From assembly GCF_002240225.1 (NCBI RefSeq), contig NZ_CP022584.1, positions 1,612,001 to 1,676,000 of the forward strand: a stretch of 64,000 nucleotides of DNA, given 5' to 3'. This DNA comes from Paenibacillus physcomitrellae (GTDB lineage: Bacteria > Bacillota > Bacilli > Paenibacillales > Paenibacillaceae). A program made the position numbers and the translations under genes. The notes under the pieces were generated by a model. That model was not told the origin of the DNA, made no database searches, and saw nothing but the letters and a program-made list of their open reading frames with translations. Positions 13,980 through 58,025 of the stretch are shown here, piece by piece. The first letter of the stretch is position 1; each line of letters opens with the position of its first letter.

Positions 13980-14798
13980 TTAAGGCTCAAAACCCTTCTG
14001 ACTGACAAATACCTGCTCTGCACCAAAAACTTCCTTCATCCGGTGGAGAACTTCCAAATAAGCGGAAGGGTGATACCAATCCCGTCTACCGATTTGCTCA
14101 TACAGATCAGAGAGCCCCAGCCGGCCGGTCCGTTTGCCGCCGCTGCCGTCGCCCATAAAATAGTCGTCCACGCATACCCGGTCCGTTACGCCGGCAAGCA
14201 GGCCGGCGAATGCCGGACTGCTCGGCAGCACCGGAGCAACGGTCGCCTGGGTGGCGATCCCCGCTTCCTTGAGCTTCCGAAGCGCTTTAAGACGTGCTGC
14301 GACCGGCGGCGCAGAAGGCGTAAAAAGGCGCCGTACCTGCTCCAGATCCGTTTCGACCGTCAGGCTGACCCTGACCCGGCTTCCCAGCCGCTGCAGCAGA
14401 TCAGTGTCCCGGGTCACCAGCGGACTCCGGGTTTGGACAAGCAGAAAATCCGGCGGCTCGGCGGCCATGACCTCCAGCAGCGCCCGCGTAACCCGCTCCT
14501 TGTATTCGGCGGGCTGGTAGGGATCGGTGCTGGAGGACATAAAAATCGTCACTTTGCCTTTCTTTTTGGCTCTGGCCAGCTCTTTCGCCAGCAGCTCGGC
14601 GGCTCCCTGCTTGACATCCACCCAGCTTCCCCATTCCAGAGGCCGGAACAGGGAAACCGGCATCTGCCTTACATAACAATAAGAGCAGGCGAACGAGCAG
14701 CCGGTATACGGGTTGAGCGAATGGGTGTAGCCGGCCAGAAAGCCTGTTCCTTTATTTAACAGGCTTTTCGGCTGTTTATACTGCAGTTCTGTTCCCAT
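13980..14798 (-). CDS. SplB-like radical SAM protein
   Basis: A 272-residue protein of the group related to spore photoproduct lyase. The radical SAM cluster motif CX3CX2C appears as CSFACSYCY around residue 40, preceded by NPYTGC; SSSTDPYQP and VRVSLTVET follow as expected for the family. The GGGGGATCAC site favours ATG at 14798. A GTG at 14816 overlaps the upstream stop codon (GTGA) and would add six residues. It is the last gene of the kdp transcript, directly after the tandem KdpD-module gene. The family includes spore photoproduct lyase, but this subgroup of about 270 to 300 residues is mostly uncharacterised and DNA repair should not be assumed. Confidence 0.82.
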   Translation of the reverse strand: MGTELQYKQPKSLLNKGTGFLAGYTHSLNPYTGCSFACSYCYVRQMPVSLFRPLEWGSWVDVKQGAAELLAKELARAKKKGKVTIFMSSSTDPYQPAEYKERVTRALLEVMAAEPPDFLLVQTRSPLVTRDTDLLQRLGSRVRVSLTVETDLEQVRRLFTPSAPPVAARLKALRKLKEAGIATQATVAPVLPSSPAFAGLLAGVTDRVCVDDYFMGDGSGGKRTGRLGLSDLYEQIGRRDWYHPSAYLEVLHRMKEVFGAEQVFVSQKGFEP

Positions 14799-14812
14799 TG
14801 TGATCCCCCTTT

Positions 14813-17251
14813 TCACGACTCCCGTTTGATATTCGGATTATAATCGTCTACGACCAAAATGTCCAAATGTCTGGCAATCCTGAGCAGCTTTCGGGTAGTG
14901 ATCCCTTCCCGGATCCGGCTCCGCCAATTCCGTCCGTTTGGGCCGATGATCAGCTGCGTCGCCCGGCATTCGTCCGCTTTAGCCAGTAAAACCTCGGCTT
15001 CCTGAAAGGGAGAGCCAGAGGACGCGATTTCGAAGGTTCCGCCCAGACGTTCGGTCAGGCTTTGCAGCGATTCGATTTTTTTCCGCTCCTCCTCCCCGAT
15101 GCTCCTGCCGGACTGGAGATAAGCGACCTTCCAGCCCGCCTTCAGCCGGTAGGCAATCCGGAATCCTCTGCGGATGAGCTTCTCGGCGCTTGGAGTCAGC
15201 TTTACGCAGACAAAAATAAATTCCCTTTTGTTCCATGGGCCGCGCAGCGAGCTTTTTCGTTCCCAGGCCTCCAGCCGTTCATCCACATCATCCGCGATTT
15301 CGCGAAGGGCCAGCTCTCTCAGCGCGATCAGGTTCCCGATCTTGAAGAAATGGTCCAAAGCCTGCTGGATTTTCTCGGAGGCATATATTTTCCCGGCTTT
15401 CATGCGGGTTTGCAGAGCCTGGGGAGCCACATCGATCAACTCCACCTCGTCGGCCATGCGTAAAATCGAATCCGGCACGGTTTCCCGTACCCGGACGCCT
15501 GTAATTTGCTCGACCGAATCGTTAAGGCTTTCCAGATGCTGAACGTTAACCGTGGATATGACGGATATGCCTGCGTTCAAAATGTCCAGAATATCTTCGT
15601 AACGCTTTTTATGCTTGCTGCCCGGGACATTGGTGTGAGCCAGCTCATCGACCAGCACCAGCTCCGGATTCCGCTTGAGGATCGCCGCCGTATCCATCTC
15701 GGTGAGATTAGCGCCTCCATAAGAAAGAGTCATTCGTTCAATCACGGGCAGGTCCGAAACCTGCCCGGCGGTTTCCGCCCGGCCATGGGTTTCCAGGTAT
15801 CCGATGACGACGTCGGTTCCCTTTTTCAGCAGGTGGTTTCCTTCGCGCAGCATCGTGTACGTTTTGCCCACCCCCGGCGCAGCGCCGATATAAACCTTAA
15901 ACCCGCCGCGGGTCATCCGGCCGATCCGTTCATCGACCTCCCGGCTGCTTAGCCGGTGGTACAAGGATCCTTGCCGGGAAACGGAAGCGGCCATTTTGGC
16001 CGGCATGATCCGCTCTCCTTGATGCGCGGCCCGGTCAGCCACAATAAAAATGTCCATATTCCGCGATTTTCTAAGAATCTGATAGACGACGGAGCCCTGC
16101 AGCAGCTCCTGCCAAAACGTTTGTTTCGAATGGCCGATGAGAATGCGGGTCACGCTGTGATCGAGGGCGTACCGGATGAGCTGATCCGGCAGCCTCCGTC
16201 TGGCATGCAGCGTCAGCTCCGCAAATTGGGCGCCCACCTTGTCGATCAGTTTGGTCATCGACTGTTTAAAGGCCAGCTGCTCTTTGCTCGGCCGCCGGTC
16301 CTTGCGGACAAAAGTGACTACGTGAAGGTCCCCGTTTAACCGTTTGGCCACCTGCTGCCCGCGCCGGATATAAATAGACCCGTTCCAATGGTATTGGGTT
16401 GAAACCAAAATGCGCTCGGCAGCTCCGGACGGCCCCAGCATCCCCATTTCCTCCCGATGTTTCTCCAGGGAATCGTTGACGCCTTCGGCCACGAGCCGCA
16501 GGGCAAGCTCACGCAGCACGCCCAGGTTGCCCCGCTCAAACCAGGGAGCAGCCGAGCTGTTCTTCAGGTTTCCTTCCGAAAATCGCTGAAGCAGCGTCTC
16601 CGGGGTGACATCGATCAGGCGGACTTCGTCAGCCAGCTCCAGCAGATTGGCCGGGATAGTTTCCTCTACCTTGATATTCACATATTTTTGGGCAAGCTCC
16701 CGGACTCCTTCAAGTTCGTAGACGTTGACGGTAGTCATGACGCTGATGCCGCGGGCAAGCAGCTCCTGGATATCGTCCCATCGGGTCGGACGCTCCGCTC
16801 CCGGCCGGTTGCGGTGGGCAAGTCCATCCACCAGTACCACTTCCGGATTGCGCTCCAGCAGCGCCTCCATGTTCAGGTCCTTTTTCTTGATCCCATCCGA
16901 TATCCACGGAATGCTGGGCACCCGCTCCAGCCCCCGCAGCTGCTCCATCGTTTCCGGACGCTGCAGGGTGGATACCGCGCAGATCACCACGTCGATTCCC
17001 TGATCCTTTAAGGCAGCGCCCTCCCGGAGCATATGATAAGTTTTTCCGGTGCCGCTCACGGCCCCGATAAAAATTTTCAACCGGCCGCGATGCAGCTTGG
17101 AGATTGACAGCAAAATTTCCTCAGGGCTTTTCCTACGATAATTGTCCAAGCGACCATTTCCCCTTTGATCCGCAGCTTGTTCATGATCTGAACTCATTTT
17201 GAATGCCGGGCATGGAAGGCCCTTATTTCCCCGCTGCCGCTTGCTGCACAT
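14813..17251 (-). CDS. Tandem KdpD sensor-module protein (two KdpD-Usp units, no kinase)
   Basis: An 812-residue soluble protein made of two copies of the N-terminal half of KdpD. Unit 1 (about residues 54-410) has Walker A GAVSGTGKT and a Walker B-like VVLVDGLAHRN, followed by a universal-stress-like domain with GHSKQTFW. Unit 2 (about 450-803) has the canonical Walker A GAAPGVGKT and LVLVDELAHTNVPGSKHKKRYED, then a second Usp-like domain. There are no membrane helices and no histidine kinase domain. In ordinary KdpD this module binds ATP and cyclic-di-AMP or K+ signals and tunes the kinase. The gene overlaps kdpC by 29 bases with no clear ribosome site; Met at 17197 is an alternative start. 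Stand-alone single KdpD N-terminal proteins are known from cyanobacteria; a doublet is unusual. Confidence 0.9.
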   Translation of the reverse strand: MCSKRQRGNKGLPCPAFKMSSDHEQAADQRGNGRLDNYRRKSPEEILLSISKLHRGRLKIFIGAVSGTGKTYHMLREGAALKDQGIDVVICAVSTLQRPETMEQLRGLERVPSIPWISDGIKKKDLNMEALLERNPEVVLVDGLAHRNRPGAERPTRWDDIQELLARGISVMTTVNVYELEGVRELAQKYVNIKVEETIPANLLELADEVRLIDVTPETLLQRFSEGNLKNSSAAPWFERGNLGVLRELALRLVAEGVNDSLEKHREEMGMLGPSGAAERILVSTQYHWNGSIYIRRGQQVAKRLNGDLHVVTFVRKDRRPSKEQLAFKQSMTKLIDKVGAQFAELTLHARRRLPDQLIRYALDHSVTRILIGHSKQTFWQELLQGSVVYQILRKSRNMDIFIVADRAAHQGERIMPAKMAASVSRQGSLYHRLSSREVDERIGRMTRGGFKVYIGAAPGVGKTYTMLREGNHLLKKGTDVVIGYLETHGRAETAGQVSDLPVIERMTLSYGGANLTEMDTAAILKRNPELVLVDELAHTNVPGSKHKKRYEDILDILNAGISVISTVNVQHLESLNDSVEQITGVRVRETVPDSILRMADEVELIDVAPQALQTRMKAGKIYASEKIQQALDHFFKIGNLIALRELALREIADDVDERLEAWERKSSLRGPWNKREFIFVCVKLTPSAEKLIRRGFRIAYRLKAGWKVAYLQSGRSIGEEERKKIESLQSLTERLGGTFEIASSGSPFQEAEVLLAKADECRATQLIIGPNGRNWRSRIREGITTRKLLRIARHLDILVVDDYNPNIKRES

Positions 17252-17798
17252 CGAGGTTCAGAAGCAGCACATTAACGACAGGTTCGCTGAACAGCCCAAG
17301 GTCTCTGCCCTTCGTATGCTGGTTGACCAGCTCCTGCAGCTGATCCGCCGGTATGCCCGTGTTGGCGCTGACGCGCGGAATCTGAACTTCGGCTGCGGCT
17401 ACACTGATGTCCGGATCCAACCCGGAACCGGAGTTCGTGATCAGGTCGATCGGCAGCTCGGAGACGGGAATCTGCGGATTTTCCTTCTCCCAAACCCGCA
17501 CGGCTTCCTCGGTACGTTGGATCATCTCCGGATTGGACGGCGCGTAATTGGGCGTCCCGGAAGAAGCCGCATTGTAATCAATGCTGGAGATTCTTCCATG
17601 GAACAAGGCAGGCGAAGTAAACGATTGCCCGATCAGCTCGGAGCCGATCAATTGATGATTCGCATCATATACCAGACTACCGTCTGCTTTACCAGGCATA
17701 AAAGCCTGGGCAATTCCCGTTACGACAAGCTGGTAAACCACCACAAGGAGGATCAGGGCCAAACTTGTTCTTAAGGTTACCGTTAGGGTCTTCATCAT
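17223..17798 (-). CDS. kdpC: Potassium-transporting ATPase KdpC subunit
   Basis: A 191-residue protein with one N-terminal membrane helix (ALILLVVVYQLVVTGIAQAF) and an extracytoplasmic domain carrying the family motifs LIGQSFTSPALFHGR, SSGTPNYAPSNPEM, LPIDLITNSGSGLDPDIS and ARVSANTGIP-like PRVSANTGIPADQL. KdpC stabilises the KdpFABC pump and raises its ATP affinity. It lies 17 bases after kdpB and overlaps the tandem KdpD-module gene, so all are in one operon. Confidence 0.95.
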   Translation of the reverse strand: MMKTLTVTLRTSLALILLVVVYQLVVTGIAQAFMPGKADGSLVYDANHQLIGSELIGQSFTSPALFHGRISSIDYNAASSGTPNYAPSNPEMIQRTEEAVRVWEKENPQIPVSELPIDLITNSGSGLDPDISVAAAEVQIPRVSANTGIPADQLQELVNQHTKGRDLGLFSEPVVNVLLLNLDVQQAAAGK

Positions 17799-17815: not shown

Positions 17816-19843
17816 CTAAACCATGAATTGAACTAGCAGATCAATCAATTTGATGCCGATAAACGGCACGATGACGCCGCCCAGCCCGTAAACCAGCAGA
17901 TTGCGGCCCAGAAGCCGGGAAGAGCTCATCGGTTTATAAGCGACTCCTCTCATAGCCAGCGGAATCAGCAGCGGAATAATGACCGCGTTAAAAATCAAAG
18001 CGGACAAGATCGCCGACAGCGGCGAATGGAGCCGCATAATATTCAGGGATTCCATCTCCGGAATCGCCATCATAAACATAGCCGGAATAATAGCAAAATA
18101 TTTGGCAATGTCATTAGCGATGCTGAAGGTCGTCAAGGCCCCGCGCGTCATCAGCAGCTGCTTGCCGATGGAAACCACTTCGATGATCTTGGAAGGATCG
18201 GAATCCAGATCGACCATGTTGGCCGCTTCCTTCGCAGCGACGGTGCCGCTGTTCATCGCAATTCCGACGTCCGCCTGAGCCAGCGCCGGCGCATCGTTGG
18301 TTCCGTCGCCGGTCATGGCAACCAGCTTCCCTTCCGCCTGCTCTTTGCGGATCACGGCGATTTTGTCCTCCGGTTTGCTTTCGGCGATAAAGGCGTCGAC
18401 TCCGGCTTCCGCCGCGATCGTCGCCGCCGTCAGCGGGTTGTCGCCCGTACACATGATCGTTTTGATGCCCATTTTTCTCATCTGGTCAAACCGTTCGCGC
18501 ATTCCCGGTTTGACCGTATCTTTCAGATAAATGAGGCCCAGTATATGTTGATCGACGGCAACGGCTAACGGCGTGCCGCCTGCCGAAGCGATCGCATCGG
18601 ATTTCTCCTGCAAATCGCGCGGAATCTGTCCCCCCTGCTCGGCCGCCCACTTTTTGACGGCATCCACGGCGCCTTTGCGGACCTTGCGTCCATCCGTCAA
18701 ATCCACGCCGCTCATGCGGGTTTCCGCTTTAAATTCTATAAAGGCCGCCCCATCGGCCAATTGCGGCTGATAAGAGAGGTTCAGCTTGTTCAGCAGTTCC
18801 AAGACGGATCGTCCTTCCGGGGTTTCGTCTTTCACGGAGCTGAGCGCCGCTATTTCCGCAACCTCGGCCACGCTGCGCTGCCCCGCCGGGACAAACTCGC
18901 TGGCCATCCGGTTCCCGTAGGTGATCGTCCCTGTTTTATCCAAAATAATCGTGTTAATATCCCCCGAGGCTTCTACGGCTTTACCGGACATCGCCAGCAC
19001 ATTAAACTGGGTGACCCGGTCCATGCCGGCAATGCCGATAGCGGACAGCAGCCCGCCGATGGTGGTCGGAATCAGGCAGACCAGCAAAGCGATCAGCACC
19101 GGAATTTCCAACTGAATGCCCAGATAATCGGACATAAACGGCAGGGTTACTACGACGATCAGAAAAATCAGCGTCATGCTGACCAGCACGGTATTCAGCG
19201 CAATTTCATTCGGCGTTTTTTGCCGTTTCGCCCCTTCGACGAGGGAGATCATCCGGTCCAGGAAGGATTCGCCAGGGTCGCTGGAGATTCGGACTTTGAT
19301 TCTGTCGCTGATCACCTTCGTGCCGCCGGTTACGGAGCTGAAGTCGCCGCCCGCTTCTTTAATGACCGGCGCTGATTCCCCGGTGATGGCCGATTCGTCG
19401 ACCGAAGCCAATCCCTCGATCACCTCGCCGTCTCCCGGAATCATTTCCCCTTGGGAAACAACAACGACGTCCCCCTTGCGCAGCTCCGTGGAGGGTACCA
19501 GCTTGATGCCGCTGCCGTTCACTTTGTTCGCCATAATTTCTTTTTTGGTTTTCTTTAATGAATCGGCCTGCGCTTTCCCCCGGCCTTCGGCCAAAGCTTC
19601 CGCAAAGTTGGCGAACAGCACCGTAAACAGCAGGATCAAAGCTACGGCCAGATTAAATCCGGATGAAACCGATCCGTAAAAAGCATCCGGCACAAAAACC
19701 AGAAACAAAGTGATCATAAACCCGATTTCAACCACAAACATGACGGGATTCCGGACCATGATCCGGGGATCCAGCTTGATGACGGATTGTTTTACTGCCT
19801 GCCGGACGATTTCGCCGGACAATGCACTTTTTTTCGTACTCAT
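17816..19843 (-). CDS. kdpB: Potassium-transporting ATPase KdpB subunit (P-type ATPase)
   Basis: A 675-residue P-type ATPase, the energising subunit of the high-affinity K+ pump. The phosphorylated Asp is in [12 protein letters not shown]; the actuator TGES is in ITGESAPV; the hinge [23 protein letters not shown] is intact; and the KdpB-specific selectivity segment reads [15 protein letters not shown]. Full length for the family. Its start lies 22 bases after kdpA, with a GGAGG site. Confidence 0.97.
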
Positions 19844-19865: not shown

Positions 19866-21542
19866 CTAAGGTTTCAAGGTCAAAAATTCAGCAATCGGTC
19901 CAAGCGCAAGCGCCGGGAAAAAGGTCAATGCGCCAACAATAACAGCAGCGCCGACAAAGACGGTTCCAAAAAGCGCGTTATCGGTGCGGAAGGTTCCCGA
20001 AGATTCAGGCACGGTTTTCTTGACGACCAGCGATCCGGCGACGGCCAGCATGGCGATGATGGAAAAATACCGTCCGAAGAAAATCACCAGTCCGGTCGAT
20101 ATGTTCCAATACGGCGTTGCGTCTCCCAGGCCTTCGAACCCGGAACCGTTGTTGGCGGCCGAAGAGGTGTACTCATACAAAGCTTGGCTGAGTCCATGGA
20201 AACCCGGGTTGGACAGCGTATCGGCATGCGCAAACAAAGCGATCGCGGTCGGCACCAGAACCAGCAGCGGGCTTATGATCAAGTTGACGGCGATGAGCTT
20301 CATCTCTTTGCCTTCGATTTTTCTGCCCAGGAATTCCGGTGTTCGTCCGACCATCAGCCCGGACAGGAAAACCGCAATCATCGCGTACATCAAAACGTTT
20401 ATAAATCCGGCTCCGACGCCTCCGAACACAGTGTTCAGCATCATATTCGCAAAAGCGACCAATCCGCCTATAGGCGTCAAAGAGTCGTGCATCGTATTTA
20501 CGGCGCCTGTCTCTGATGCGGTCGTCACGACAGCGTAAAGCGTCGATTGCGCCATTCCGAAGCGGGCTTCCTTCCCTTCCATGGAACCCTGGTCATGCTG
20601 AATGCCCATCGCATTCAGGACCGGGTTGCCTGCGCTTTCGCTGGCCAGGGCCACGCCGAGCAGCACGATAAACATCATCGCCATGGAGACAAACAACACG
20701 CGCCCTTGCTTGGCATTGCCCACCATTTTTCCGTAAGTAAACGGAAGCGCCGTTCCCAGCAGCAGCATGAGCAAAATTTGCAGCAAATTGCTGATGCCGT
20801 TCGGGTTCTCAAATGGATGTGCGGAGTTGACTCCAAAAAATCCCCCGCCGTTGTTTCCGAACTCCTTTATCGACAGGAATGAAGCGACAGGCCCGCGGGC
20901 AATTTCCTGTTTGGCCCCTTCCAGCGTTGTAGCTACCGCGGTCGGTTCCAGCGTTTGCGGAACGCCCAAAGCCACAAAGACAACCGCCATCACCAGGGAT
21001 ACCGGCAAAAGAATGCGGGTAATGCCCCGGATGAAGTCCACAAAAAAGTTGCCGAGCGGCTTGCCGGAAATGCCCCGGATAAATGCGATCGCCGCAGCCA
21101 GTGCGGAAGCCGGAGCGGCAAACATCAAGAAGATGATGGCCACCATTTGCGACAGATAGGAAAGCCCCGTCTCCCCGCTGTAATGCTGGAGGTTGGTATT
21201 CGTCATAAAGCTGATCGCCGTATTAAAAGCGAGCGTAGGCTCCATGGAGGCTACATGGCTCGGGTTCAGCGGCAGGCTGCCCTGAAACCGGAAGATCAAG
21301 TAGACGATCAGGATCATCACGCAGTTGCTGAGCAGCAAGGACAGTGCATATTGCTTCCAGCCCTGATTGTCCTTGCGTATGCCGCTGACAGAATAGATAG
21401 GCTTCTCCAGCCAGCCAAAGCCGCGGTCCAGACCGGTTGGTTCATAATTAAAAGCCTTCGCTATATACAGGCCCGCCGGACGGGCGAGCAATAGCGATAT
21501 TAGTAAGGTGATTGCTATGGCAATCCAGTTTTCAATACTCAC
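19866..21542 (-). CDS. kdpA: Potassium-transporting ATPase KdpA subunit
   Basis: A 558-residue channel-like subunit with ten or more membrane helices and four pore loops: [51 protein letters not shown] and [13 protein letters not shown], the K+ filter signatures of KdpA. It starts with GTG at 21542, eight bases after AGGAGG. KdpA selects K+ and passes it to KdpB. Confidence 0.97.
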
Positions 21543-22051: not shown

Positions 22052-22759
22052 TTATTCCTCGGAAAGCTGAAGCATCCGGTAGCCGACCCCGATATGCGTC
22101 TGAATAAACTTGTTCTGGGACGATGTTTTTTCGATCTTCTTGCGCAAGGTGGCCATAAAGACCCGGAGGGCCGGAATGTCATACGAATGACTGCCCCAGA
22201 TTTCATTGATCATATAATTATACGTCAATACTTTCCCGGAATTTTTGGCCAGCAGGCACAGAATTTTGTATTCGCTTGGCGTCAGGTGCACCTCTTCCCC
22301 GGACAACCAGACGCAGCCTGCGCTGTAATCGATTTTGAGGCTGCCGTTCGTATAGATGGAAGAGTCGCTCAGCAGCTTCGTGCTGTCGTTCCGGATTCTC
22401 CGCAGACTGACTCTCAGCCGGGCGAGCAGTTCTTCCACGCTGAACGGTTTGGTCAGATAATCGTCCGCCCCCGCATCCAGCGCTTCGATTTTATCGCGGT
22501 CTTCACTGCGGGCGCTGACCACAATAATCGGCAAATTGGACCAGGTGCGGATCTTGCGGATAATTTCAACCCCGTCTATATCCGGCAGCCCCAAATCCAG
22601 AATCATCAAATCCGGCGCTCTGGAGAGCGTCTCCAGAATAGAGGCCTCTCCCGTATGCGCCGTCAAATATTTATAACCTTGGGTTTCCAGTGTTGTCGTA
22701 ATCAGTTTCCGGATCGGCTTGTCATCTTCCACGACCAGAATAACCGGTTTATTATTCAT
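22052..22759 (-). CDS. kdpE: KdpE response regulator
   Basis: A 235-residue OmpR/PhoB-type regulator: receiver domain with VVEDDKPIRKLI, phosphoacceptor in LMILDLGLPDIDG and YLTKPFSVEELLARLRV, then a winged-helix domain (VHLTPSEYKILCLLAKNSGKVLTYNYM..IWG, ending VGVGYRM-like IGVGYRML). The ATG at 22759 lies inside the last codons of kdpD (8-base overlap); a longer frame would read into kdpD and is rejected. It should activate the kdp pump operon when K+ is scarce. Confidence 0.93.
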   Translation of the reverse strand: MNNKPVILVVEDDKPIRKLITTTLETQGYKYLTAHTGEASILETLSRAPDLMILDLGLPDIDGVEIIRKIRTWSNLPIIVVSARSEDRDKIEALDAGADDYLTKPFSVEELLARLRVSLRRIRNDSTKLLSDSSIYTNGSLKIDYSAGCVWLSGEEVHLTPSEYKILCLLAKNSGKVLTYNYMINEIWGSHSYDIPALRVFMATLRKKIEKTSSQNKFIQTHIGVGYRMLQLSEE

Positions 22760-25460
22760 GAATATCCACCTCTTCCGCATACAAAGTGAAATAGAATACA
22801 CTTCCGCGGGGCTCATGGTCTCTTACCCCGATGGTCCCGCCATGTGCCTGGATAATCGATTGGCATAAGGCAAGGCCCAGTCCAAGCCCTCGTCTGCCGT
22901 CTGCTGAACTGTTGTTCCCCGTATAGAACATTTCAAACAACCGCTCTTTATCGGCATCCGGTATACCCGGACCATCGTCCGAAACTTCAACGAGAATCCA
23001 TTCCCCGCTTCTCTTCGCGGATATTCGAATGATAGAACCGTCCTGCGTATATTTGATGGCATTGTCCACCAGATTGATCAAAACCTGGACAACAAGCCGG
23101 GAATCCATTTTTGCCATTAACAGCTCGTCTTCCAGATCCGTCTGAATTTCATGCTTCTGGCTGTTCCGGGTTACGTGACGCATCGCTTCCGTGATGACAT
23201 CGTCCACCAGTTCTGCCTGAAGATTCAGCTTCATTGTTCCGTTGTCGATCCTGCTTATCGATAACAGATTCTCTACCAGGTTAATCAGCCAGATGGAATC
23301 GTCATAAATATCCGCATACAGTCCGGTCCGCTGCTCTTCATCCAGCACCTTGGAGTTGCTCAGCAAAATGCCGGCATTCCCCAAGATACTGGTCAATGGT
23401 GTCCGTAAATCATGGGAGATAGAGCGCAGCAGATTGGCGCGCAGCTGCTCCTGACGAATTTGCATGGAAATCTCTTTCTGCTGTTCGTTTAACTGTTCCT
23501 TTTCCAGTGCAAGCGCGCATTCGCCCAGCATCGCGATCACAAGGCTTTGTTCAAAGGAGTCGAGCGGGTCCCCTTCATCCATTGCAATAGCTGAAACGGC
23601 CAGCACTCCCTCGCCGCCCCGGACGGCGTGATAGAGACATTCGGCTCCGAAGAAGGTATCTGTCGTTGCGCCGGCTCTTTTATTGTTGGTAAACACCCAG
23701 TTGGCCACAGCCTTCTCGTTGTCCCCCGTATAGAGCGCCCGATCCTTCGATTCTTCCCCGCCCGGGAACACAATCGGCTCGGACAGTTTGTTCAGATCCA
23801 CAGGGTAAAAAATAACCGTCCGCCCCAGCAGCTTGACGAGCTGCCGGGCGGTTTCTTCAATGATCGCAGCCGCATTGCCGGCCTGCTGCAATTTGCGGCT
23901 CGTCTCCAGCAAAATTTCGGTACGGTAAGCTTTCTGTGCGGCAATTCGGGCCTGCTCCCTGACCCGCATCGTTAAAGTGCTGGTCAGGATTGAGGCGGCC
24001 AGCATCACTACAAACGTGATCAAATAACCGGAATCATAGGTTTTAAGTGAATAATAAGGCTCTGTAAAGAAGTAATTGAATACGATAACGCTCAAAATAG
24101 ACAGAAGCGCGCTGTATAACCTGCCCTTTGTTATTGTGGCATTTAGAAGAACGCCCAGCAGATAAACCGTAATGATGTTGGCTTCCCGGAAGCCCAGGTG
24201 CTGGAACCAGACGCCAATGAGCGTGCAGAAGAGCAAAACCAACAAACTTTTTATCGAATCTCTAAAAGAAAATGCAGGCGGTTTTATCGGTAATCCGGTA
24301 CTCTTGACGCCTTCGGTCCCGATGTACGGAATAATATACGTTTCCATATGCGGAACCAGCGGGATCAGTTTGTCGATCAAAGAAGACTTATGCACCCCCC
24401 GCTTGCGATCGGGAGAACGTCCCAGCACCAGCTTGGTCACCCCGCTCATCTTGACATATTCGGCAATTTGAACCGGAATATCTTCGCCATAGACGGTCGC
24501 AATTTGCGCCCCAAGCTGCTCCGCCAGTTTAAGATTTTCCCGCAGCTGCATTTTCTTCAAATGTTCATTGTCTCTTGTCCCTTTTGATTCCCGTTCAGGG
24601 GCTTCCACATACAGGGCCGTAAACTGGCTGTGGAACACTTCCGCCATTCTTGCGGCAGTCCGGATGACCTTCTGGTTTGAAGGAGCAGAGGAAAGGCACA
24701 CCAGAATATGATCCTGATAATACTTATCCTCTTTCTTTGTCTCTTCATTGATGAGTAAGGCTATCCGTCTTAACTGCCGGGCCGTGATTTTCAGGGCGAT
24801 TTCCCGCAGCGGCTTTAGCTTCTCGAGAACATAAAGGCTGGAGAAATCCCGCTCCCCCTGCATCAGCTCATCCGGATGCATCCGGCCCTTTTGGAAACGT
24901 TCAACGACCTTATCTAAATCTGCATCCACCAGTTCAATCTGGTCGGCACGCTCAAACACATTGTCAGGTATTCGTTCATCAACGGATATTTCAGTAATCG
25001 AAGTGATGATATCGGTCAAGCTTTCGATTTCCTGAATATCCAATGTGGTATAGACGTGGATACCCGCGCGAAGCAGCTCCTCCACATCCTGATATCTTCT
25101 TTTATGCCTGCAGCCCTCCGCATTGACATGAGCCAGCTGATCCAGCAAAACAATGTCCGGCTTGCGCTCCAGCGCGGCATCGAGATTAAAATCATGAAAG
25201 ACTCCCTTACTTTTAGAAGCAGAAATTTGAAGCGGTTCAAGCCTGCCCAGTCCCGATGAAGTCATCCGGGAATAGTCGCCGATATCACCGAGGACCACAT
25301 CCATCCCGTTCTGCGCGTCCCTTCGGGCGGCATGAAGCATCGCCCCTGCCTTGGCCGAACCTGGAAGGTAACCGAGGAAAATGCTGAGTTTCCCCCTCGT
25401 TCTCCTCTTAGAGGAATCGAGTACGGAATCATGATTATCTTGTATGGAATCCGTTGGCAT
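22752..25460 (-). CDS. kdpD: KdpD sensor histidine kinase with degenerate ATP-binding sensor module
   Basis: A 902-residue full-length KdpD: N-terminal KdpD module (about 22-230), Usp-like domain (about 250-370, with LVLGRSPDRKRG), four membrane helices (about 385-490), GAF-like region, and a kinase core with SHDLRTPLTSILG and NLVDNAIKYT, DDGPGIPD, GLGLGLAL. The sensor module is odd: Walker A reads GYLPGSAKA instead of GxxPGVGKT, and Walker B reads IVLLDQLAHVN instead of LVDELAHTN. The Lys is kept but the second Gly and the Thr are lost. ATP binding by this module is therefore doubtful. It is translationally coupled to kdpE. The unrelated hydrolase gene ends 51 bases upstream. Confidence 0.94.
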   Translation of the reverse strand: MPTDSIQDNHDSVLDSSKRRTRGKLSIFLGYLPGSAKAGAMLHAARRDAQNGMDVVLGDIGDYSRMTSSGLGRLEPLQISASKSKGVFHDFNLDAALERKPDIVLLDQLAHVNAEGCRHKRRYQDVEELLRAGIHVYTTLDIQEIESLTDIITSITEISVDERIPDNVFERADQIELVDADLDKVVERFQKGRMHPDELMQGERDFSSLYVLEKLKPLREIALKITARQLRRIALLINEETKKEDKYYQDHILVCLSSAPSNQKVIRTAARMAEVFHSQFTALYVEAPERESKGTRDNEHLKKMQLRENLKLAEQLGAQIATVYGEDIPVQIAEYVKMSGVTKLVLGRSPDRKRGVHKSSLIDKLIPLVPHMETYIIPYIGTEGVKSTGLPIKPPAFSFRDSIKSLLVLLFCTLIGVWFQHLGFREANIITVYLLGVLLNATITKGRLYSALLSILSVIVFNYFFTEPYYSLKTYDSGYLITFVVMLAASILTSTLTMRVREQARIAAQKAYRTEILLETSRKLQQAGNAAAIIEETARQLVKLLGRTVIFYPVDLNKLSEPIVFPGGEESKDRALYTGDNEKAVANWVFTNNKRAGATTDTFFGAECLYHAVRGGEGVLAVSAIAMDEGDPLDSFEQSLVIAMLGECALALEKEQLNEQQKEISMQIRQEQLRANLLRSISHDLRTPLTSILGNAGILLSNSKVLDEEQRTGLYADIYDDSIWLINLVENLLSISRIDNGTMKLNLQAELVDDVITEAMRHVTRNSQKHEIQTDLEDELLMAKMDSRLVVQVLINLVDNAIKYTQDGSIIRISAKRSGEWILVEVSDDGPGIPDADKERLFEMFYTGNNSSADGRRGLGLGLALCQSIIQAHGGTIGVRDHEPRGSVFYFTLYAEEVDIHE

Positions 25461-36202: not shown

Positions 36203-39200
36203 TTAATAAACTTCTACCTCATAAATCGAAGGACCATAAATCTCGAAATGCCTGCCGGTCATGTAAAGGCGCAGATAGCGGCCGGAGACAGCTAGCGGCT
36301 CCAGGTCGATTAGTTGGGTCAAGTCCGCATCCTCTTTATCAAGCTCTTCACTTTTGACCGTCTGCCAATCGGATTCATTTCCTGTCAGTTCATCCGCCAC
36401 TTGGATATCGACGTGAGTCGGATAGGCTCTTTCCCAATGCACCACCAGCTGTTGCAGTTGCTGCAGGCTTCCAAGATCCACATAGATCCATTCCGCCTCT
36501 GCCCCCTCAGACCAGTTGGCTTCCCACCTGGTCTGAGGATCTCCATCAGTGATCACATTCGGATCAAAATTAGCGTTGGAGCTGGAAGCCGTTACAGGAC
36601 GGTGAAGAGCCAAATTCGGGCTTTCATCCCCGCTTCCGCCTGAGCCATCTTCCCCGCCGGAGGGCAGAACTTCCTGCTGAATGGAAACGTCTGCGTATCC
36701 TGCCGCTTTGATCAAAACGGTATAAACTCCAGGTTCAGCCAAGCTTCCTGCTTTGAGAGTCAATATGCCTGCCTGAAGCAAATAATCCGTATTCTTCTGA
36801 AGTTCCTTCCCGTTTAAGGAGACGGAGGTAACCGCCTGCTCCCATAAAGGATCGGCCGTAAAGGTCAAGTCAAGGTCACGGTCCGTATAATTGTCATAGG
36901 TATCTGCAGTTACGGTAGGCGGGGCAAGGGGGTCCGCTGTTCCCGGGCCGGGATTGCCACCGTCTTCCCCGGTTTCGCCTGAATCTCCCGCAGGAGTGCC
37001 GTACACTTCCATTTCCCATAAAGAATAACCGTATTGCGTGCCTCTAGCTGTTCCTAACACACGTACATGGCGGGCTTCAGCCGGTTCCTCAAAAATCAGG
37101 TCCTGACCACCATTCCCTGCATTTTCCGTATACCAATCGGTCCAGTCGTCGTCCCCCGGCTGCTCGGCTTGGGAGACCTGCACTTGATAAGTTTTGCCGT
37201 ACGCGCCTTCCCAGTTCAAAAGCACGGAATCGATCCGGTAAAGACCGCCAAGATCCACCGAAAACCACTGCGGGTCTTTAGATTCGGACTCCCAGCGAGT
37301 GTTCGGATTGCCGTCTACCGCATTGGCCGCAGCCTGCACGGACGAGGAAGCGGATGCCGTTTTACCCAGCGCCACGTTAGGCGATGCTGACAGGATCAGC
37401 TGGGAAACCTCGTTGGCCCCATAGCCATCGGCCAAAATTGCAATCGTATAACTGCCTGGGGACAGGAACAGCGAAGGATCCAGCCTGATGCTGCTCTGAC
37501 CTATGGTCACCTTCTCCATAGCCGCAGCGTTTCCATTGATTTGTACGCCGCTTATTGCCTCGCGCCAGCCCGGATCGTCCGGGAAGGTGAGCTCGATCTC
37601 ATGACCAGCCTGGTTCTCCGTCGTATCAGCTGTCAGCTGCGGCCCTCCTTTAACTTCCTTTAATTTAATGTCATCGAAATGAAGAACATGTTCGGAATCT
37701 GGAGTGGTCTGATCGCCCGTAATAACATTGCCGAGCAGATACTTCAGCGTAAAGGTGGCATTAGCCGAAGGCTTCAGGACAGCCGTATACACTTTTTGCG
37801 AATCCCCGGTAATCGAAAAAGGAAGCTGCTGGCTGTTGTTATAACCCGTAAGCTCAATCAGAATCGGACGGTCTACGGAAGACCACGCCCGGAAGGAGAG
37901 CTCATACGTTTTCCCGGCTTCTACCTGGACGCCGGACTGCATCAGCTGGGTATACCAGCTGAAAGGCACGCCCCACTGCGGGTCCAAGCCGCCGAAATAA
38001 TGAATGTTCAGTTCGGCAGCCCCATCCTTGACGTCAAAGGTCGAATCCCCTTCGTTCGCTACCCAAAGCTCCCAGCCGGTTTTGCCTTGCGCAAATCCTC
38101 CGTTGACCAGCAAATTCCCATCGCTTGCAATCAGAACCTGCGTGACGCTCGTATCGGCGTACCCTTCAGCTTTGACCGTGATCCGGTAGGTGCCCTCCGA
38201 GCTGAAAGCAGAAGGATGGAGGACCAGGCTTCCCGGCTGAACTTCATATTCCCCGGTCTCCAGCACTCGGTCATTGACCAAAACCGAGCCAATGGCCGTC
38301 CGCCAGGCTTCGTTCTCTTTGAATCCCAACTCCACCGGCTGGCCGAACCGGTTATCGGTCGCATCCGCTGCAAGCGCCGGCGGACGTTTCAGCGGAGCGT
38401 CCTTCACTTCCAGCACCACGTTGCGGAACGAAATCTCGTGGGCGCCGTTTGGAGCCTGCGGGGTTTTGCCGAGCAGGAATTTCAACGCTACGTTATCGTC
38501 CGCCGTCGATTTAACCGTATATTCGTAATGCTGCCAATCCGGCTCCAGGGAAATGAAGCCGGAGTCGAAACGGCGGTTGTACGCCGCATCCTCCAGTGTC
38601 ACTTCCGTATCGCGGGTGACCGACGACTTGGCGTCAAAAGCGAGCACATAGGTAAAACCTTTGGTCAAATTCAGGTTGGACTGGTTGAGCATGATATTCC
38701 AGGCTTCCGTACCCACATTGGTTACAGACACTTTAGCCATGCCGTCAGCCGCGCTAAAGCCGGCAGCCGCTCCCTGCGTAAACGGCTCCCAGCCGGCCAA
38801 ACCCGCCGAAAAGTCCCCGTTGACAAGCGGATACAGGCTGACCTTGGAATAATCAACGTTGTTGTTGGTCGTACGGATCAACCGGATGTTATCCAAGGTT
38901 AAGGTTGAATCAGCCGTGGTTCTGCTTCCCAAATCAAACACCAGTTGGCCCTCCGGATCCGTAACCTGCTCCGGCATGGTAAAGCTGACTGTATGCTTCC
39001 CGACTGTCGTACCTATCGAGATATCGTTGATATTTCCGTAAACCGTGGATCCATCCTTGCTCAGAAATCGGACGTTTACGGTACGCTGTGCATCGGCCTT
39101 CGCCTCAAAGCTCAGCTCATATGAATCGCTCTGCAGCAAATTGATTCCTTTCTGTAGCAGCTGCACCGCCTCCGGACGGCCCCCGCCGTTCCGGATGTCG

Positions 39201-42200
39201 ACGGTCAATTCGCGCCGGTTCTGATCCACGCTGGCTGAAGCGTCAGCTCCATCCGTTCTAAAGCTCCAATATTTCATGCGATCCATCGTGCCCAAATCAA
39301 AGGTGCCGTTATAAACATGATTCCCATCATCCAGCGGTGTTTTCGCTCCATCAGGATCAACGACCTGGTCGGTCTCCTCCAAGCGGACATTGCCGATCCA
39401 GACCGGACTGGTGTTCAGCCCCACATTAAATTCAAGACGGGCCGTCAAATCAGTTTGGGCTCCCATAACAAAACGGTATTCGTAATGATTAAGCGAAGAT
39501 TGCAGTTTGACGTCAAAATTGTCGGAATAGGCCGACCAGCCGTTATCGGCATCCCCTCCCATCTTCACGGCAATAGACCGATCAGCGTTCGATTTGGCAT
39601 CAAAACTTAACTTATAAACATGCCCTCTAACCAAGGGTGCATATTGGATCAACTGCAGCGAGTAGTTCTGATTGCCGCCGTTTGTCGGTATAATCTTGGC
39701 AAAATTACGGCCGTCAATCGGCTCTATAGAGGCCGAACCTGCTCCTCCATAATCCGGCGTATGCAGGAAATTCCATTTATCCGCCGAAAGCGGCTGGCTG
39801 CTGGTCGTAATATCCGTCAGGCTCTGCTCAAAATTCGGATCGGCAATGTAGCTGCCGTCTACAGGCTGTCTGGCTTCAGTCGGAATTGGCTCTTTGGCCA
39901 GCACGGGTTCTACCGGCGTTTTGTAAGGTTTGCCGTCTAATTCGTAGGCTCTTACATAATCAACCTGCATTTCGGCCGGAAGCTTGGAGTCCGGCGGGAG
40001 CACATTGCCGTCGAAATTACCGCCTACAGCCAGGTTTAGGATGATATAAAAAGGCTGATCAAAAGGAGCCGGGAATGCGTATTTGTCCGGCTGTCCGATT
40101 CCTTCACTGCTCCATTCGTTAGCTTTATGAAACAGATTTCCGTCTACATACCATCTGATTTCTCCCGGCTCCCATTCAACCGCATAAGTATGAAAACCGC
40201 TGCTAATCGATTGGCCTGCCGGGAAGTGGTAATCGCCGCCGTTCGATTTATTATTCGGCCAAGGCTTGCCAAAATGAATCGTGCCGGACGTCTCTCCCGG
40301 CAGGCGGCCCCTGGCTTCCATGATGTCGAGTTCGCCTGACGACGCCCATCCGCCATATACGCTGTCCTTGGGCATCATCCAGAATGCCGGCCAAAATCCC
40401 TCTCCTTCAGGCATTTTGATGCTGGCTTCGAAACGGCCGTATTGCTTGCTGAATGTAGGCGATGTCCAAAGCCGGCCTGAAGTGTAAGGTTTACCATTCA
40501 TCGACTCCTTCTTGGCTGTAATCGTCAGCTTGCCATCCTCGACCTTCAGATTATCTTTGGAGTAATACTGCTGTTCATTGTTGCCCCAGCCATCCAGGCC
40601 GTATTCAGCTCCTGTCCCGTTCTGGTAGCCCCATTTGTCCAGATCAACCCCGTTGCTGTCCAGTTTGGTGCCGCTTCCATCAAATTCATCACTCCAAACG
40701 AGCTGCCATTCGCCCATTGGCTGTATCACATCAGCATCTGCATATCCAGCCGCCTTGATTTTGACCGTTTGATTGCCCGTCGCCGTGAACACGGAAGCTT
40801 TCAACGTCAGGGAACCAGCGCCTATAACATAATCCTCCGTGAGCGTCAGCCGGCGGCCGTTCAGCAGCACCTCTGTGATCGCGCTGCGCCAAGCCTGATT
40901 ATCCGCAAAAGTAAGCACAACATCCCGGCCAAGCACGTTGTTGTCCTGGTCTGGCGTCAATACCGGTGTGATCAAGCTGTTGCCGCCACCCCCGTTGTTT
41001 CCTCCATTGTCTCCACTTCCGCTTCCGCCTCCGTTAGTGGAACCGCTGCCCGAAGGAACTGCAGGCGGCTGGCTCGGTTTCGGCTCCCCTTTTTCAGCGG
41101 TCTTCCCGCTTTGTACTTCCAAAACGGCCCCTTGCTTAACGGCTTCTCCATTCAGCGTTATTCCCGCAGTCTGGGCATGAAGCTCGCCTACCGTTCCTTT
41201 CACGCTCAGCTCTGTACCGCCTGCAGATGGCTCCACTTGCAGATTGGCAACTTCAGCCTGCTCGCCAACCTCAATGACGGCTCCCGTTTCTACGCTCATC
41301 GCACCTACCTTGGAATTGCCTTCCAGAACAACCCGAACCGGACTTCCGTTTTTATTTACAACTACTGTTCCTACCGAAGAATTGTGAAGATGTACCGAGT
41401 GGCTGCCGCCGCCGTTCACATATAAGACCCCGTCTGTACGAAGTCCATCCAGCGTTACGTCTCCTTCACCAACGCCCGCCGTTATCAATACGTTACCTTT
41501 GATTTCGGCATCCTTAATAGTCGCAGCACCGCTGGCAATCAGTAATCCTCCATCCGATTTCAAGCCTTCCACGTTACCCGGTTTATGAACAATCTCGCCG
41601 GCAAGCCGGTCAAGCAGCACCACGGCTTCCGCTCGGGTCAAGGGCTGCTTGGGCCGAAGTGTTCCATCTGCAAAGCCTTTTACGGCTCCCGCCTGAATAA
41701 GATCAGCCAAAGGCTGAACAGCAAAACCGGCAATCTCCGAACGATCCGCAAATCCGCCTGTCACGGCTGATGAATCTGCTTTCGACAGCGGGAACAGCGA
41801 GGCAACAATCTTGGCAGCCTCCTGCCGGGTTACGGCCGTCTCCGGTTTAAACAGTTGATCCGGATAACCTTCCATATATCCAGCTTGCAGCGCAATACCA
41901 ACCTGCTCGGCATACCATTTGTTCGGAGCCACATCCGAGAACGTTGTCCCGGACTTGACGCTATAGCCAAACAAGGCATTGACCAGCTTGGCAAACTCTG
42001 CGCGGCTAACCGTATCATTCGGCCGGAACTTGCCGCCGCTGCCTTCTACAAGACCCAGCGCTGCCCATTTTCCGATTGACCCACTGGCCCAGGTCCCCTG
42101 AACATCTTTAAAAGTTGAACCTGCGCTTACCCCGTCAGTTAAAACGCTGACTGCGCCAGGCAGAGTTGGGGGAATAGCTGTGCCTGAACCCGTTGAGGCA

Positions 42201-42334
42201 AAAGCAGAGGCGGAGCCTGATACCGGAGCGGCCCAACCAGCAGCCGGCAGCTGACCGGCCAGCAGCACAGTCCCGAACAATACAGCGGCAATTTGCCGCC
42301 GAAGTCGATTGTTTTTTCCCATAGATAACGTCAT
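36203..42334 (-). CDS. Giant SLH-anchored GH16 beta-glucanase with multiple binding domains
   Basis: A 2043-residue secreted protein. Order: signal peptide (about 1-36); three SLH domains (about 74-243) for attachment to cell-wall polymer; a repetitive beta-solenoid-like region (260-410); a Gly/Ser/Pro linker; a DUF1533-like domain (about 455-538); a GH16 catalytic domain (541-800) with the active-site motif GELDIMEARG (Glu668, Asp670, Glu673); three CBM4/9-like domains; a second DUF1533-like domain; a fourth CBM4/9-like domain; a third DUF1533-like domain; a discoidin (F5/8C) domain; a fourth DUF1533-like domain; and a final discoidin domain. GH16 enzymes of this kind cut beta-1,3 or mixed-linked glucans such as laminarin. 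The start at 42334 or the second ATG at 42322 cannot be separated. Oligomers released would suit the importer next door. Confidence 0.92.
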   Translation of the reverse strand: MTLSMGKNNRLRRQIAAVLFGTVLLAGQLPAAGWAAPVSGSASAFASTGSGTAIPPTLPGAVSVLTDGVSAGSTFKDVQGTWASGSIGKWAALGLVEGSGGKFRPNDTVSRAEFAKLVNALFGYSVKSGTTFSDVAPNKWYAEQVGIALQAGYMEGYPDQLFKPETAVTRQEAAKIVASLFPLSKADSSAVTGGFADRSEIAGFAVQPLADLIQAGAVKGFADGTLRPKQPLTRAEAVVLLDRLAGEIVHKPGNVEGLKSDGGLLIASGAATIKDAEIKGNVLITAGVGEGDVTLDGLRTDGVLYVNGGGSHSVHLHNSSVGTVVVNKNGSPVRVVLEGNSKVGAMSVETGAVIEVGEQAEVANLQVEPSAGGTELSVKGTVGELHAQTAGITLNGEAVKQGAVLEVQSGKTAEKGEPKPSQPPAVPSGSGSTNGGGSGSGDNGGNNGGGGNSLITPVLTPDQDNNVLGRDVVLTFADNQAWRSAITEVLLNGRRLTLTEDYVIGAGSLTLKASVFTATGNQTVKIKAAGYADADVIQPMGEWQLVWSDEFDGSGTKLDSNGVDLDKWGYQNGTGAEYGLDGWGNNEQQYYSKDNLKVEDGKLTITAKKESMNGKPYTSGRLWTSPTFSKQYGRFEASIKMPEGEGFWPAFWMMPKDSVYGGWASSGELDIMEARGRLPGETSGTIHFGKPWPNNKSNGGDYHFPAGQSISSGFHTYAVEWEPGEIRWYVDGNLFHKANEWSSEGIGQPDKYAFPAPFDQPFYIILNLAVGGNFDGNVLPPDSKLPAEMQVDYVRAYELDGKPYKTPVEPVLAKEPIPTEARQPVDGSYIADPNFEQSLTDITTSSQPLSADKWNFLHTPDYGGAGSASIEPIDGRNFAKIIPTNGGNQNYSLQLIQYAPLVRGHVYKLSFDAKSNADRSIAVKMGGDADNGWSAYSDNFDVKLQSSLNHYEYRFVMGAQTDLTARLEFNVGLNTSPVWIGNVRLEETDQVVDPDGAKTPLDDGNHVYNGTFDLGTMDRMKYWSFRTDGADASASVDQNRRELTVDIRNGGGRPEAVQLLQKGINLLQSDSYELSFEAKADAQRTVNVRFLSKDGSTVYGNINDISIGTTVGKHTVSFTMPEQVTDPEGQLVFDLGSRTTADSTLTLDNIRLIRTTNNNVDYSKVSLYPLVNGDFSAGLAGWEPFTQGAAAGFSAADGMAKVSVTNVGTEAWNIMLNQSNLNLTKGFTYVLAFDAKSSVTRDTEVTLEDAAYNRRFDSGFISLEPDWQHYEYTVKSTADDNVALKFLLGKTPQAPNGAHEISFRNVVLEVKDAPLKRPPALAADATDNRFGQPVELGFKENEAWRTAIGSVLVNDRVLETGEYEVQPGSLVLHPSAFSSEGTYRITVKAEGYADTSVTQVLIASDGNLLVNGGFAQGKTGWELWVANEGDSTFDVKDGAAELNIHYFGGLDPQWGVPFSWYTQLMQSGVQVEAGKTYELSFRAWSSVDRPILIELTGYNNSQQLPFSITGDSQKVYTAVLKPSANATFTLKYLLGNVITGDQTTPDSEHVLHFDDIKLKEVKGGPQLTADTTENQAGHEIELTFPDDPGWREAISGVQINGNAAAMEKVTIGQSSIRLDPSLFLSPGSYTIAILADGYGANEVSQLILSASPNVALGKTASASSSVQAAANAVDGNPNTRWESESKDPQWFSVDLGGLYRIDSVLLNWEGAYGKTYQVQVSQAEQPGDDDWTDWYTENAGNGGQDLIFEEPAEARHVRVLGTARGTQYGYSLWEMEVYGTPAGDSGETGEDGGNPGPGTADPLAPPTVTADTYDNYTDRDLDLTFTADPLWEQAVTSVSLNGKELQKNTDYLLQAGILTLKAGSLAEPGVYTVLIKAAGYADVSIQQEVLPSGGEDGSGGSGDESPNLALHRPVTASSSNANFDPNVITDGDPQTRWEANWSEGAEAEWIYVDLGSLQQLQQLVVHWERAYPTHVDIQVADELTGNESDWQTVKSEELDKEDADLTQLIDLEPLAVSGRYLRLYMTGRHFEIYGPSIYEVEVY

Positions 42335-57701: not shown

Positions 57702-57760
57702 AACAATACACTCCTTTAGGTTGTTCAAAGATACCCCTAAAATCATGCAGGAAGAACCAG

Positions 57761-58025
57761 AAAAAAAGACCGCAGCTATTTCGCGCGGTCTTTGGATCAT
57801 TAGAAATTATCTGCCTCAAACCTTCATGAAGATAGCACAACACGGCGTTTTGGCGAAAAACAGCCGTGACAGTTCTGTCCCTTTCGGAAACAGCCCCAGC
57901 ACCGCCCCCTATGAAGCAGGGAGCGGACTTCGGCGGTCATGCCTTTCGGCCGGGATCTTCAGCTGCTTCAAGCTTCCTCCGGCGTTACTCTTCATAACCG
58001 CGACCTCTACCTCATCACAATCAGA
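57761..58025 (-). ncRNA. Lysine riboswitch (L-box) with leader terminator
   Basis: Reading the minus strand from 58020: GATGAGGTAGAGGTCGCG, GAAGAGTAACGCCGG, GCCGAAAGGC, CCGCCGAAGTC, then a GGGGCTG..GGGACAGAACTGTC arm and closing GCTATCTTC. These are the conserved blocks of the lysine aptamer and occur in the right order and spacing. It is followed by a terminator (57761-57793: AAGACCGC/GCGGTCTT plus a run of seven T) before the permease gene. When lysine binds, the terminator should form and shut off uptake. Confidence 0.93.

Follow-up and report, generated by a model that had tools for sequence, protein, structure and literature searches.

The window, a stretch of 64,000 nucleotides from Paenibacillus physcomitrellae (NCBI RefSeq assembly GCF_002240225.1, contig NZ_CP022584.1, positions 1,612,001 to 1,676,000), carries on its reverse strand a kdp cluster in which a kdpE-like gene and a gene for a full-length KdpD histidine kinase lie upstream of the pump genes kdpA, kdpB and kdpC. 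These are followed 3' on the same strand by a gene for a protein composed of two KdpD-Usp modules in tandem, termed here the doublet (Table 1). The link to kdpFABC had been made in a first-pass annotation of the DNA and is confirmed by this gene order, which suggests that the doublet is probably made together with the pump from a common transcript.

The single 812-codon frame contains two PF02702 stretches scoring 554.1 bits in total, and modules 1 and 2 align over 374 columns with 34% identity (E 4e-68), in agreement with the tandem architecture described in the first-pass annotation. The Usp family (PF00582) scores 28.8 bits on the whole doublet with a cut-off of 24, and 17.2 and 16.7 bits, both below that cut-off, on the halves alone; a Usp domain is present in each half of the predicted fold, that of module 2 included, where its presence had been singled out for checking. 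No window of 19 residues exceeds a hydropathy of 1.6, compared with 10 such windows in the adjoining full KdpD, and profile and hydropathy scans detect no transmembrane, HisKA or HATPase parts in the doublet, so the earlier description of a protein without membrane helices stands. The model built from 27 sequences (mean pLDDT 76.7, predicted TM-score (pTM) 0.73) shows in each half a KdpD domain and a Usp domain, with 2r8r and 7ji4 as fold matches, and a low-confidence linker between the halves; in both AlphaFold models (pTM 0.73 and 0.65) the two Usp domains are paired as in tandem universal stress proteins such as UspE, which is compatible, as far as models go, with the proposed internal dimer. 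The NCBIfam model NF038185 (KdpD-like non-kinase potassium sensor) has 373 positions and corresponds to one module; the doublet passes the cut-off of 550 with 766.6 because the scores of its two modules add up, whereas each module alone (433 and 338) falls below it. Frames of ~220-240 amino acids matching only the Usp part of NF038185 occur in many genomes of the genus with or without a doublet, although not in that of the window, for example at L027:1213-1911, with the Usp part as its first half, and at L026 and L028-L033 (L-numbers denote loci, G-numbers genomes and f-numbers families in the samples).

The doublet had been described as overlapping kdpC, its presumed ATG at 17251 falling within that gene. 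A start motif near M-x-x-(F/Y)-R-R-K-T-P-E-E is common among relatives, and an ATG, GTG or TTG stands at the motif column in 37 of the 53 long frames that contain it, at the next column in 5 and at neither in 11. The equivalent codon here is a TTG placed 73 nucleotides 3' of the kdpC stop, and the overlap is therefore probably a start-codon artefact.

Table 1. Features of the doublet and of the surrounding kdp cluster (positions in the window)
Feature	Positions	Strand	Evidence or remark
Tandem KdpD-Usp protein, 812-codon open frame from the first-pass ATG	14813..17251	-	Frame list, profile searches
Likelier coding region, TTG start 17149-17147, 778 amino acids, AAAGGGG upstream	14813..17149	-	Probable, from DNA and relatives' starts
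Module 1 KdpD (P-loop) domain, putative pseudokinase	16478..17092	-	PF02702, 240.4 bits
Module 1 Walker A GAVSGTGKTY, residues 63-72, intact	17036..17065	-	G36, K37, T38 in 74/74 first modules
Module 1 Walker B VLVDGLAHRN, residues 139-148; Gly143 (codon 16825-16823) replaces catalytic Glu	16808..16837	-	
Module 1 Usp domain, approximate limits, loop QYHWNGS	16034..16417	-	
Inter-module linker, pLDDT <50	15947..16030	-	Predicted model residues 372-399
Module 2 KdpD (P-loop) domain, putative active serine kinase	15284..15910	-	PF02702, 318.5 bits; matches 2r8r
Module 2 Walker A GAAPGVGKTY, residues 456-465	15857..15886	-	
Module 2 Walker B VLVDELAHTN, residues 532-541; catalytic Glu536 (codon 15646-15644)	15629..15658	-	
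Module 2 Usp domain, approximate limits	14834..15235	-	Fold match to 7ji4
kdpC	17223..17798	-	PF02669
kdpB, expected substrate; TGES residues 154-157, Ser157 = E. coli Ser162	17816..19843	-	
kdpA	19866..21542	-	Profile search
kdpE-like response regulator	22052..22816	-	KdpE is the top NCBIfam model at 225 bits (cut-off 325)
Full-length KdpD histidine kinase, 902 amino acids, degenerate serine-kinase site	22752..25460	-	
Full KdpD degenerate Walker A GYLPGSAKA, residues 30-38	25347..25373	-	
Full KdpD degenerate Walker B VLLDQLAHVN, Glu110 to Gln	25122..25151	-	

According to the main text of PMC11018627, the KdpD domain of Escherichia coli is an atypical serine kinase (ASK) that, when K+ is high, shuts down KdpFABC by phosphorylating KdpB at Ser162. 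The reaction requires Walker A, Asp109 and Glu110, with Trp39 and Arg190 holding the adenine, replacement of Glu110 by Ala abolishes phosphorylation, and the short KdpD of Deinococcus geothermalis performs the reaction under cyclic di-AMP (c-di-AMP). The term kinase-less, applied to the doublet in the first-pass annotation, is wrong: no histidine-kinase domain is present, but the KdpD domain is itself a serine kinase in E. coli and D. geothermalis; the word non-kinase in the name of NF038185 is likewise out of date in view of that part of PMC11018627.

The two modules differ at this catalytic site. Residue states were assigned by alignment to E. coli KdpD for 74 doublets and 24 single modules, and a second, partly overlapping set comprises 72 doublets, both doublet sets consisting of best-scoring hits and not of random draws. 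Module 2 of the window retains Walker A G36-K37-T38, Asp109, Glu110 and Arg190, and module 1 retains the ATP site (Walker A, Asp109, Arg190) and has lost the catalytic Glu110, so that the description of two complete modules needs correcting at this glutamate. Residues G36, K37, T38, D109 and R190 are found in both modules of all 74 doublets (G34 is Lys in one first module), whereas Glu110 is present in 74/74 second modules and 24/24 single modules and in only 10/74 first modules; the second set gives 72/72 second and 15/72 first modules. Among doublets of the Paenibacillus/Brevibacillus type Glu110 is lost from 64 of 65 first modules compared with none of 65 second modules, position 110 of these first modules being occupied by Gly (51), Asn (4), Ala (3), Asp (3), Ser (1), His (1), Gln (1) or Glu (1). 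Position 39 is Tyr in all 74 first and in 72 second modules, the remaining 2 having Phe; both residues are aromatic, like Trp. The pattern of residues suggests that module 1 is a pseudokinase, with the ATP site kept and the catalytic glutamate lost, and that module 2 is an active serine kinase.

The genome encodes three KdpD domains, and since module 1 and the full KdpD of the window (Walker A GSAKA, Gln for Glu110) are both altered, module 2 is its only intact one. With an intact site defined as GK(T/S) plus D plus E, the site is altered in 18 of 33 KdpDs from genomes bearing a doublet or an adjacent pair of single modules and in none of 40 others (Fisher p 1.9e-8, with related rows in the comparison). 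The 18 comprise 12 of 15 (with one count for the window and one for L128 and L214) and 6 of 18 from 17 genomes under one genus code, and the 40 others comprise 11 from Bacilli, L215, L216, E. coli and 26 named ones (without a search of their genomes for doublets elsewhere), none of the 40 lying beside a doublet. On a tree built from 53 KdpDs (33/33 and 20/40) the altered state requires 7 changes, of which at least 4 are forced by well supported branches. The site is altered in all 7 full KdpDs of the genus sample, and in four of these Asp replaces Glu. These residue states suggest that transcription switching by KdpD/KdpE and pump silencing by the doublet are divided between two proteins here.

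The distribution of the doublet was followed in samples of 40 genus, 119 order (match at 1e-85), 250 class and 398 phylum (at 1e-100) genomes. Within the genus it occurs as one frame of 777-826 amino acids in 22/40 genomes, 7 of which also have a full KdpD, and a single KdpD plus Usp gene is found in none of the 40. In the order sample 79/119 genomes match, 78 of them with two or more matches and the best in a frame of 673-891 amino acids (one of the 78 being cut by a contig end), and the remaining match, in G259, is a full KdpD. The recurrence of the fused frame in 22/40 genus and 78/79 matching order-sample genomes rules out an artefact of two separate genes, which the first-pass annotation had named as a possible objection. 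The class sample gives 90/250 matches, with doublets in f16, f25, f32, f37, f43 and f58 and single modules (frames of 362-465 amino acids) in other families, and the phylum sample gives 48/398 with two further doublets, L249 and L250; unfused adjacent pairs of single-module genes are present at L105, L106, L180 and L251. Named carriers are Paenibacillus, Cohnella, Saccharibacillus, Brevibacillus and Bacillus methanolicus, together with metagenome-assembled genomes labelled Cyanaurora, Melainabacteria and Bacillota, and the best named match is from Paenibacillus oleatilyticus (66%). In 67 of 72 doublets the first kdp-type frame met on going upstream along the strand is kdpC, the open frames being -150 to 500 nucleotides apart in 58 and 685-1812 nucleotides apart in 9.

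Taken with the residue states and the gene order, the known activity of the KdpD domain makes it reasonably probable that the doublet is a tandem short KdpD in which a pseudokinase module is joined to an active ASK module and which silences KdpFABC. On return of plentiful K+, module 2 would bind ATP and phosphorylate the serine of the KdpB TGES motif, and this modification would stop pumps already in the membrane. Module 1, keeping its ATP site and unable to transfer phosphate, may gate or dock module 2 through the two Usp domains, packed in the models as an internal pair, and the signal could be c-di-AMP or another nucleotide. As the only intact ASK of this genome, module 2 would leave silencing to the doublet and transcription to KdpD/KdpE. 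Direct action on the pump had been one of the options raised in the first-pass annotation and, by analogy with the activity described in the main text of PMC11018627, is the one that fares best. As a widespread natural soluble construct with one intact and one apparently dead site, the doublet would allow ATP binding to be separated from phosphotransfer and the Usp input to be dissected without membranes.

Among other assignments of module 1, a docking arm that attaches to a second pump or to the actuator domain of KdpB but transfers no phosphate to it, thereby raising the local concentration or clamping the pump, is unlikely, yet the best placed of them: it agrees with the kept ATP site and the lost catalytic glutamate, and KdpB contact is a known property of the KdpD domain in the main text of PMC11018627, but the surroundings of the lost glutamate are remodelled (Arg at 114 in 50/74 and Ala at 119 in 67/74 first modules), which may spoil KdpB binding. 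That both modules are kinases, the first acting via another residue or on another substrate, seems improbable. Conservation of module 1 with residues of its own (Walker B region DGLAHRN, Usp loop QYHWNGS) and the Glu110 of both modules in doublets of the other type would fit two kinases, but seven different residues replace the glutamate missing from the 64 first modules, and the E. coli Glu110Ala substitution already described removed the activity. A relic kept for solubility or Usp pairing, for which the Usp domain would suffice and the catalytic residue could be lost, is comparably improbable, because a mere scaffold would need no intact ATP site and the Walker A, Asp109 and Arg190 of module 1 are invariant, its ratio of nonsynonymous to synonymous substitution (dN/dS) of 0.04-0.15 in 5 of 6 pairs (dS being saturated in some) being about as low as that of module 2, so that module 1 looks to be under constraint.

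The transcriptional wiring of doublet operons bears on whether the doublet instead senses K+, ATP or c-di-AMP and controls kdp transcription through KdpD/KdpE in trans, as the first-pass annotation had also proposed and as the kdpD and kdpE genes in the same cluster here might suggest. A c-di-AMP riboswitch (RF00379) lies upstream of kdpA on its strand in 13 of the 22 genus doublet operons, all 13 lacking a full KdpD, 7 have a full KdpD and no riboswitch, none has both, and 2 (L207, L208) have neither, a histidine-kinase core without a KdpD domain lying nearby; the riboswitch operons L189, L191, L192, L193 and L199 are also adjoined by a kinase/regulator pair. Of 8 doublet loci outside the genus that lack a full KdpD, 7 have the riboswitch, which in L090 does not lie upstream of the kdpA frame; it is absent from the 3 scanned loci with full KdpD (L210, L212, L213). 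According to PMC6488665, riboswitch and KdpDE are mutually exclusive elsewhere too, and kdp transcription in Bacillus thuringiensis is unaffected when its short KdpD is lost. Because 13 of the 22 operons have no full KdpD and the B. thuringiensis deletion did not alter kdp transcription, action in trans is improbable as a general role. The doublet is the constant part of kdp operons across wiring types, which fits action on the pump. Single c-di-AMP riboswitches upstream of kdpA are also seen on the opposite strand in L189, L191 and L107, and two on the kdp strand in L190, L196, L200, L201, L204-L206, L088 and L107. In the window, this kdp operon included, no c-di-AMP riboswitch is found at gathering score; three lie elsewhere in the genome, which also has two diadenylate cyclase genes.

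Several observations weigh against a pseudokinase-kinase tandem that silences the pump, in addition to the composition of the doublet sets. Glu110 is present in both modules of the 9/74 doublets of the other type and in module 1 of L092, a doublet of the Paenibacillus/Brevibacillus type, so the tandem needs no dead half. Tyr here takes the place of the Trp39 that stacks on the adenine in E. coli, and the placing of the modules comes from AlphaFold models (pTM 0.73 and 0.65) that carry no estimate of interdomain error. Decay of the KdpD serine-kinase site is no rule, since 15 of 33 sites, all under one genus code, are intact, and 9 of the 18 altered ones are Glu to Asp (L202 also without Lys37), which may keep some activity. 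In the flanking DNA examined, 5 of 72 doublets do not follow kdpC: L091 has kdpB next at 1372 nucleotides, the kdp genes of L104 are on the opposite strand, L133 reaches a contig end, and L117 and L131, both from Paenibacillus, have no kdp gene in the examined flanks. Both of the latter have Ser for Thr38 in module 2 and are perhaps second copies. The S. aureus-type c-di-AMP motif of the KdpD Usp domain, (A/G/C)xSxSx2N(Y/F) as given in PMC8214093, is absent from both Usp domains here, from the doublets and from the single modules of Bacilli. This absence is not counted against c-di-AMP as the signal because the motif is also missing from three short KdpDs of Deinococcota (D. radiodurans, D. 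wulumuqiensis and Allomeiothermus), which are kin of the c-di-AMP-responsive protein of D. geothermalis.

The doublet resembles the short KdpD of D. geothermalis in having the same two domains and no histidine kinase, from which a like action on KdpB may be expected, and a single short KdpD gene also lies 3' of kdpC in two Deinococcota loci. It differs in having two modules, the first without the catalytic glutamate, the sequences compared being those of kin of the D. geothermalis protein. Compared with E. coli KdpD, module 2 shares every residue of demonstrated importance apart from Trp39, whereas the membrane, GAF and histidine-kinase parts are missing, the ASK domain being doubled and placed in a separate protein. 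Unlike the tandem universal stress proteins UspE, Rv2623 and TTHA0350, the doublet has a P-loop kinase domain between its two Usp domains. The kdp region of Alicyclobacillus acidocaldarius reportedly contains a split kdpD, to judge from the title of a 2006 study by Schleussinger. The f16 loci L095, L096 and L099-L102 have a gene order that appears to match the divergent kdp arrangement of A. acidocaldarius, with a doublet after kdpC, and those doublets differ from that of the window in keeping both catalytic glutamates.

The serine-kinase role of the KdpD domain has been known since 2024, its control being left open in the main text of PMC11018627, which mentions neither Paenibacillus nor a duplicated or double KdpD. 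A literature search over titles and abstract openings, with subscription papers mostly outside its scope, returned no tandem KdpD modules and no pseudo form of this kinase. A broader proposal, to be held only tentatively and with less confidence than pump silencing itself, is that an ASK with a covalently attached ATP-binding pseudokinase twin constitutes a bacterial pseudokinase-kinase pair, that its internal Usp pair reads a nucleotide, and that it took over pump silencing in Paenibacillus and relatives from KdpD, whose serine-kinase half decayed repeatedly. The existence of doublets with and without full KdpD, together with the repeated decay of the KdpD site, opens the division of labor between transcriptional shut-off and arrest of the pump to direct test.

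In the module tree the f16, f25 and f58 doublets are separate from the Paenibacillus/Brevibacillus type, so that two doublet origins are favored over one but not shown, as the approximately unbiased test does not reject a single origin (p 0.21 for first and 0.078 for second modules). Both modules of the G546 doublet (f32) cluster with those of G281 (f6) and not with other f32 genomes (L088/L060), a grouping that suggests horizontal transfer. Genome G549 carries both doublet types, L103 with Glu in both modules and lying 3' of kdpC, and L104, in which Asp occupies the catalytic position of module 1 and which lies on the strand opposite the kdp genes. L250 (G864), a doublet from outside Bacilli, has neither Walker A nor Walker B in module 1 by the pattern used, and its kdpB and kdpC are on the opposite strand.

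Elsewhere in the window, a radical SAM gene (PF04055) at 13980-14816 (-) directly follows the doublet gene, its nearest NCBIfam models being PA0069 and Rv2578c, below their cut-offs. A lysine riboswitch at 57825-58017 (-), the sole Rfam match of the window at gathering score, directly precedes an amino-acid permease gene at 56241-57800. The region 36203-42334 (-) encodes a protein of 2043 amino acids with three SLH, one GH16, four CBM4_9 and four Shr-like_HID domains.
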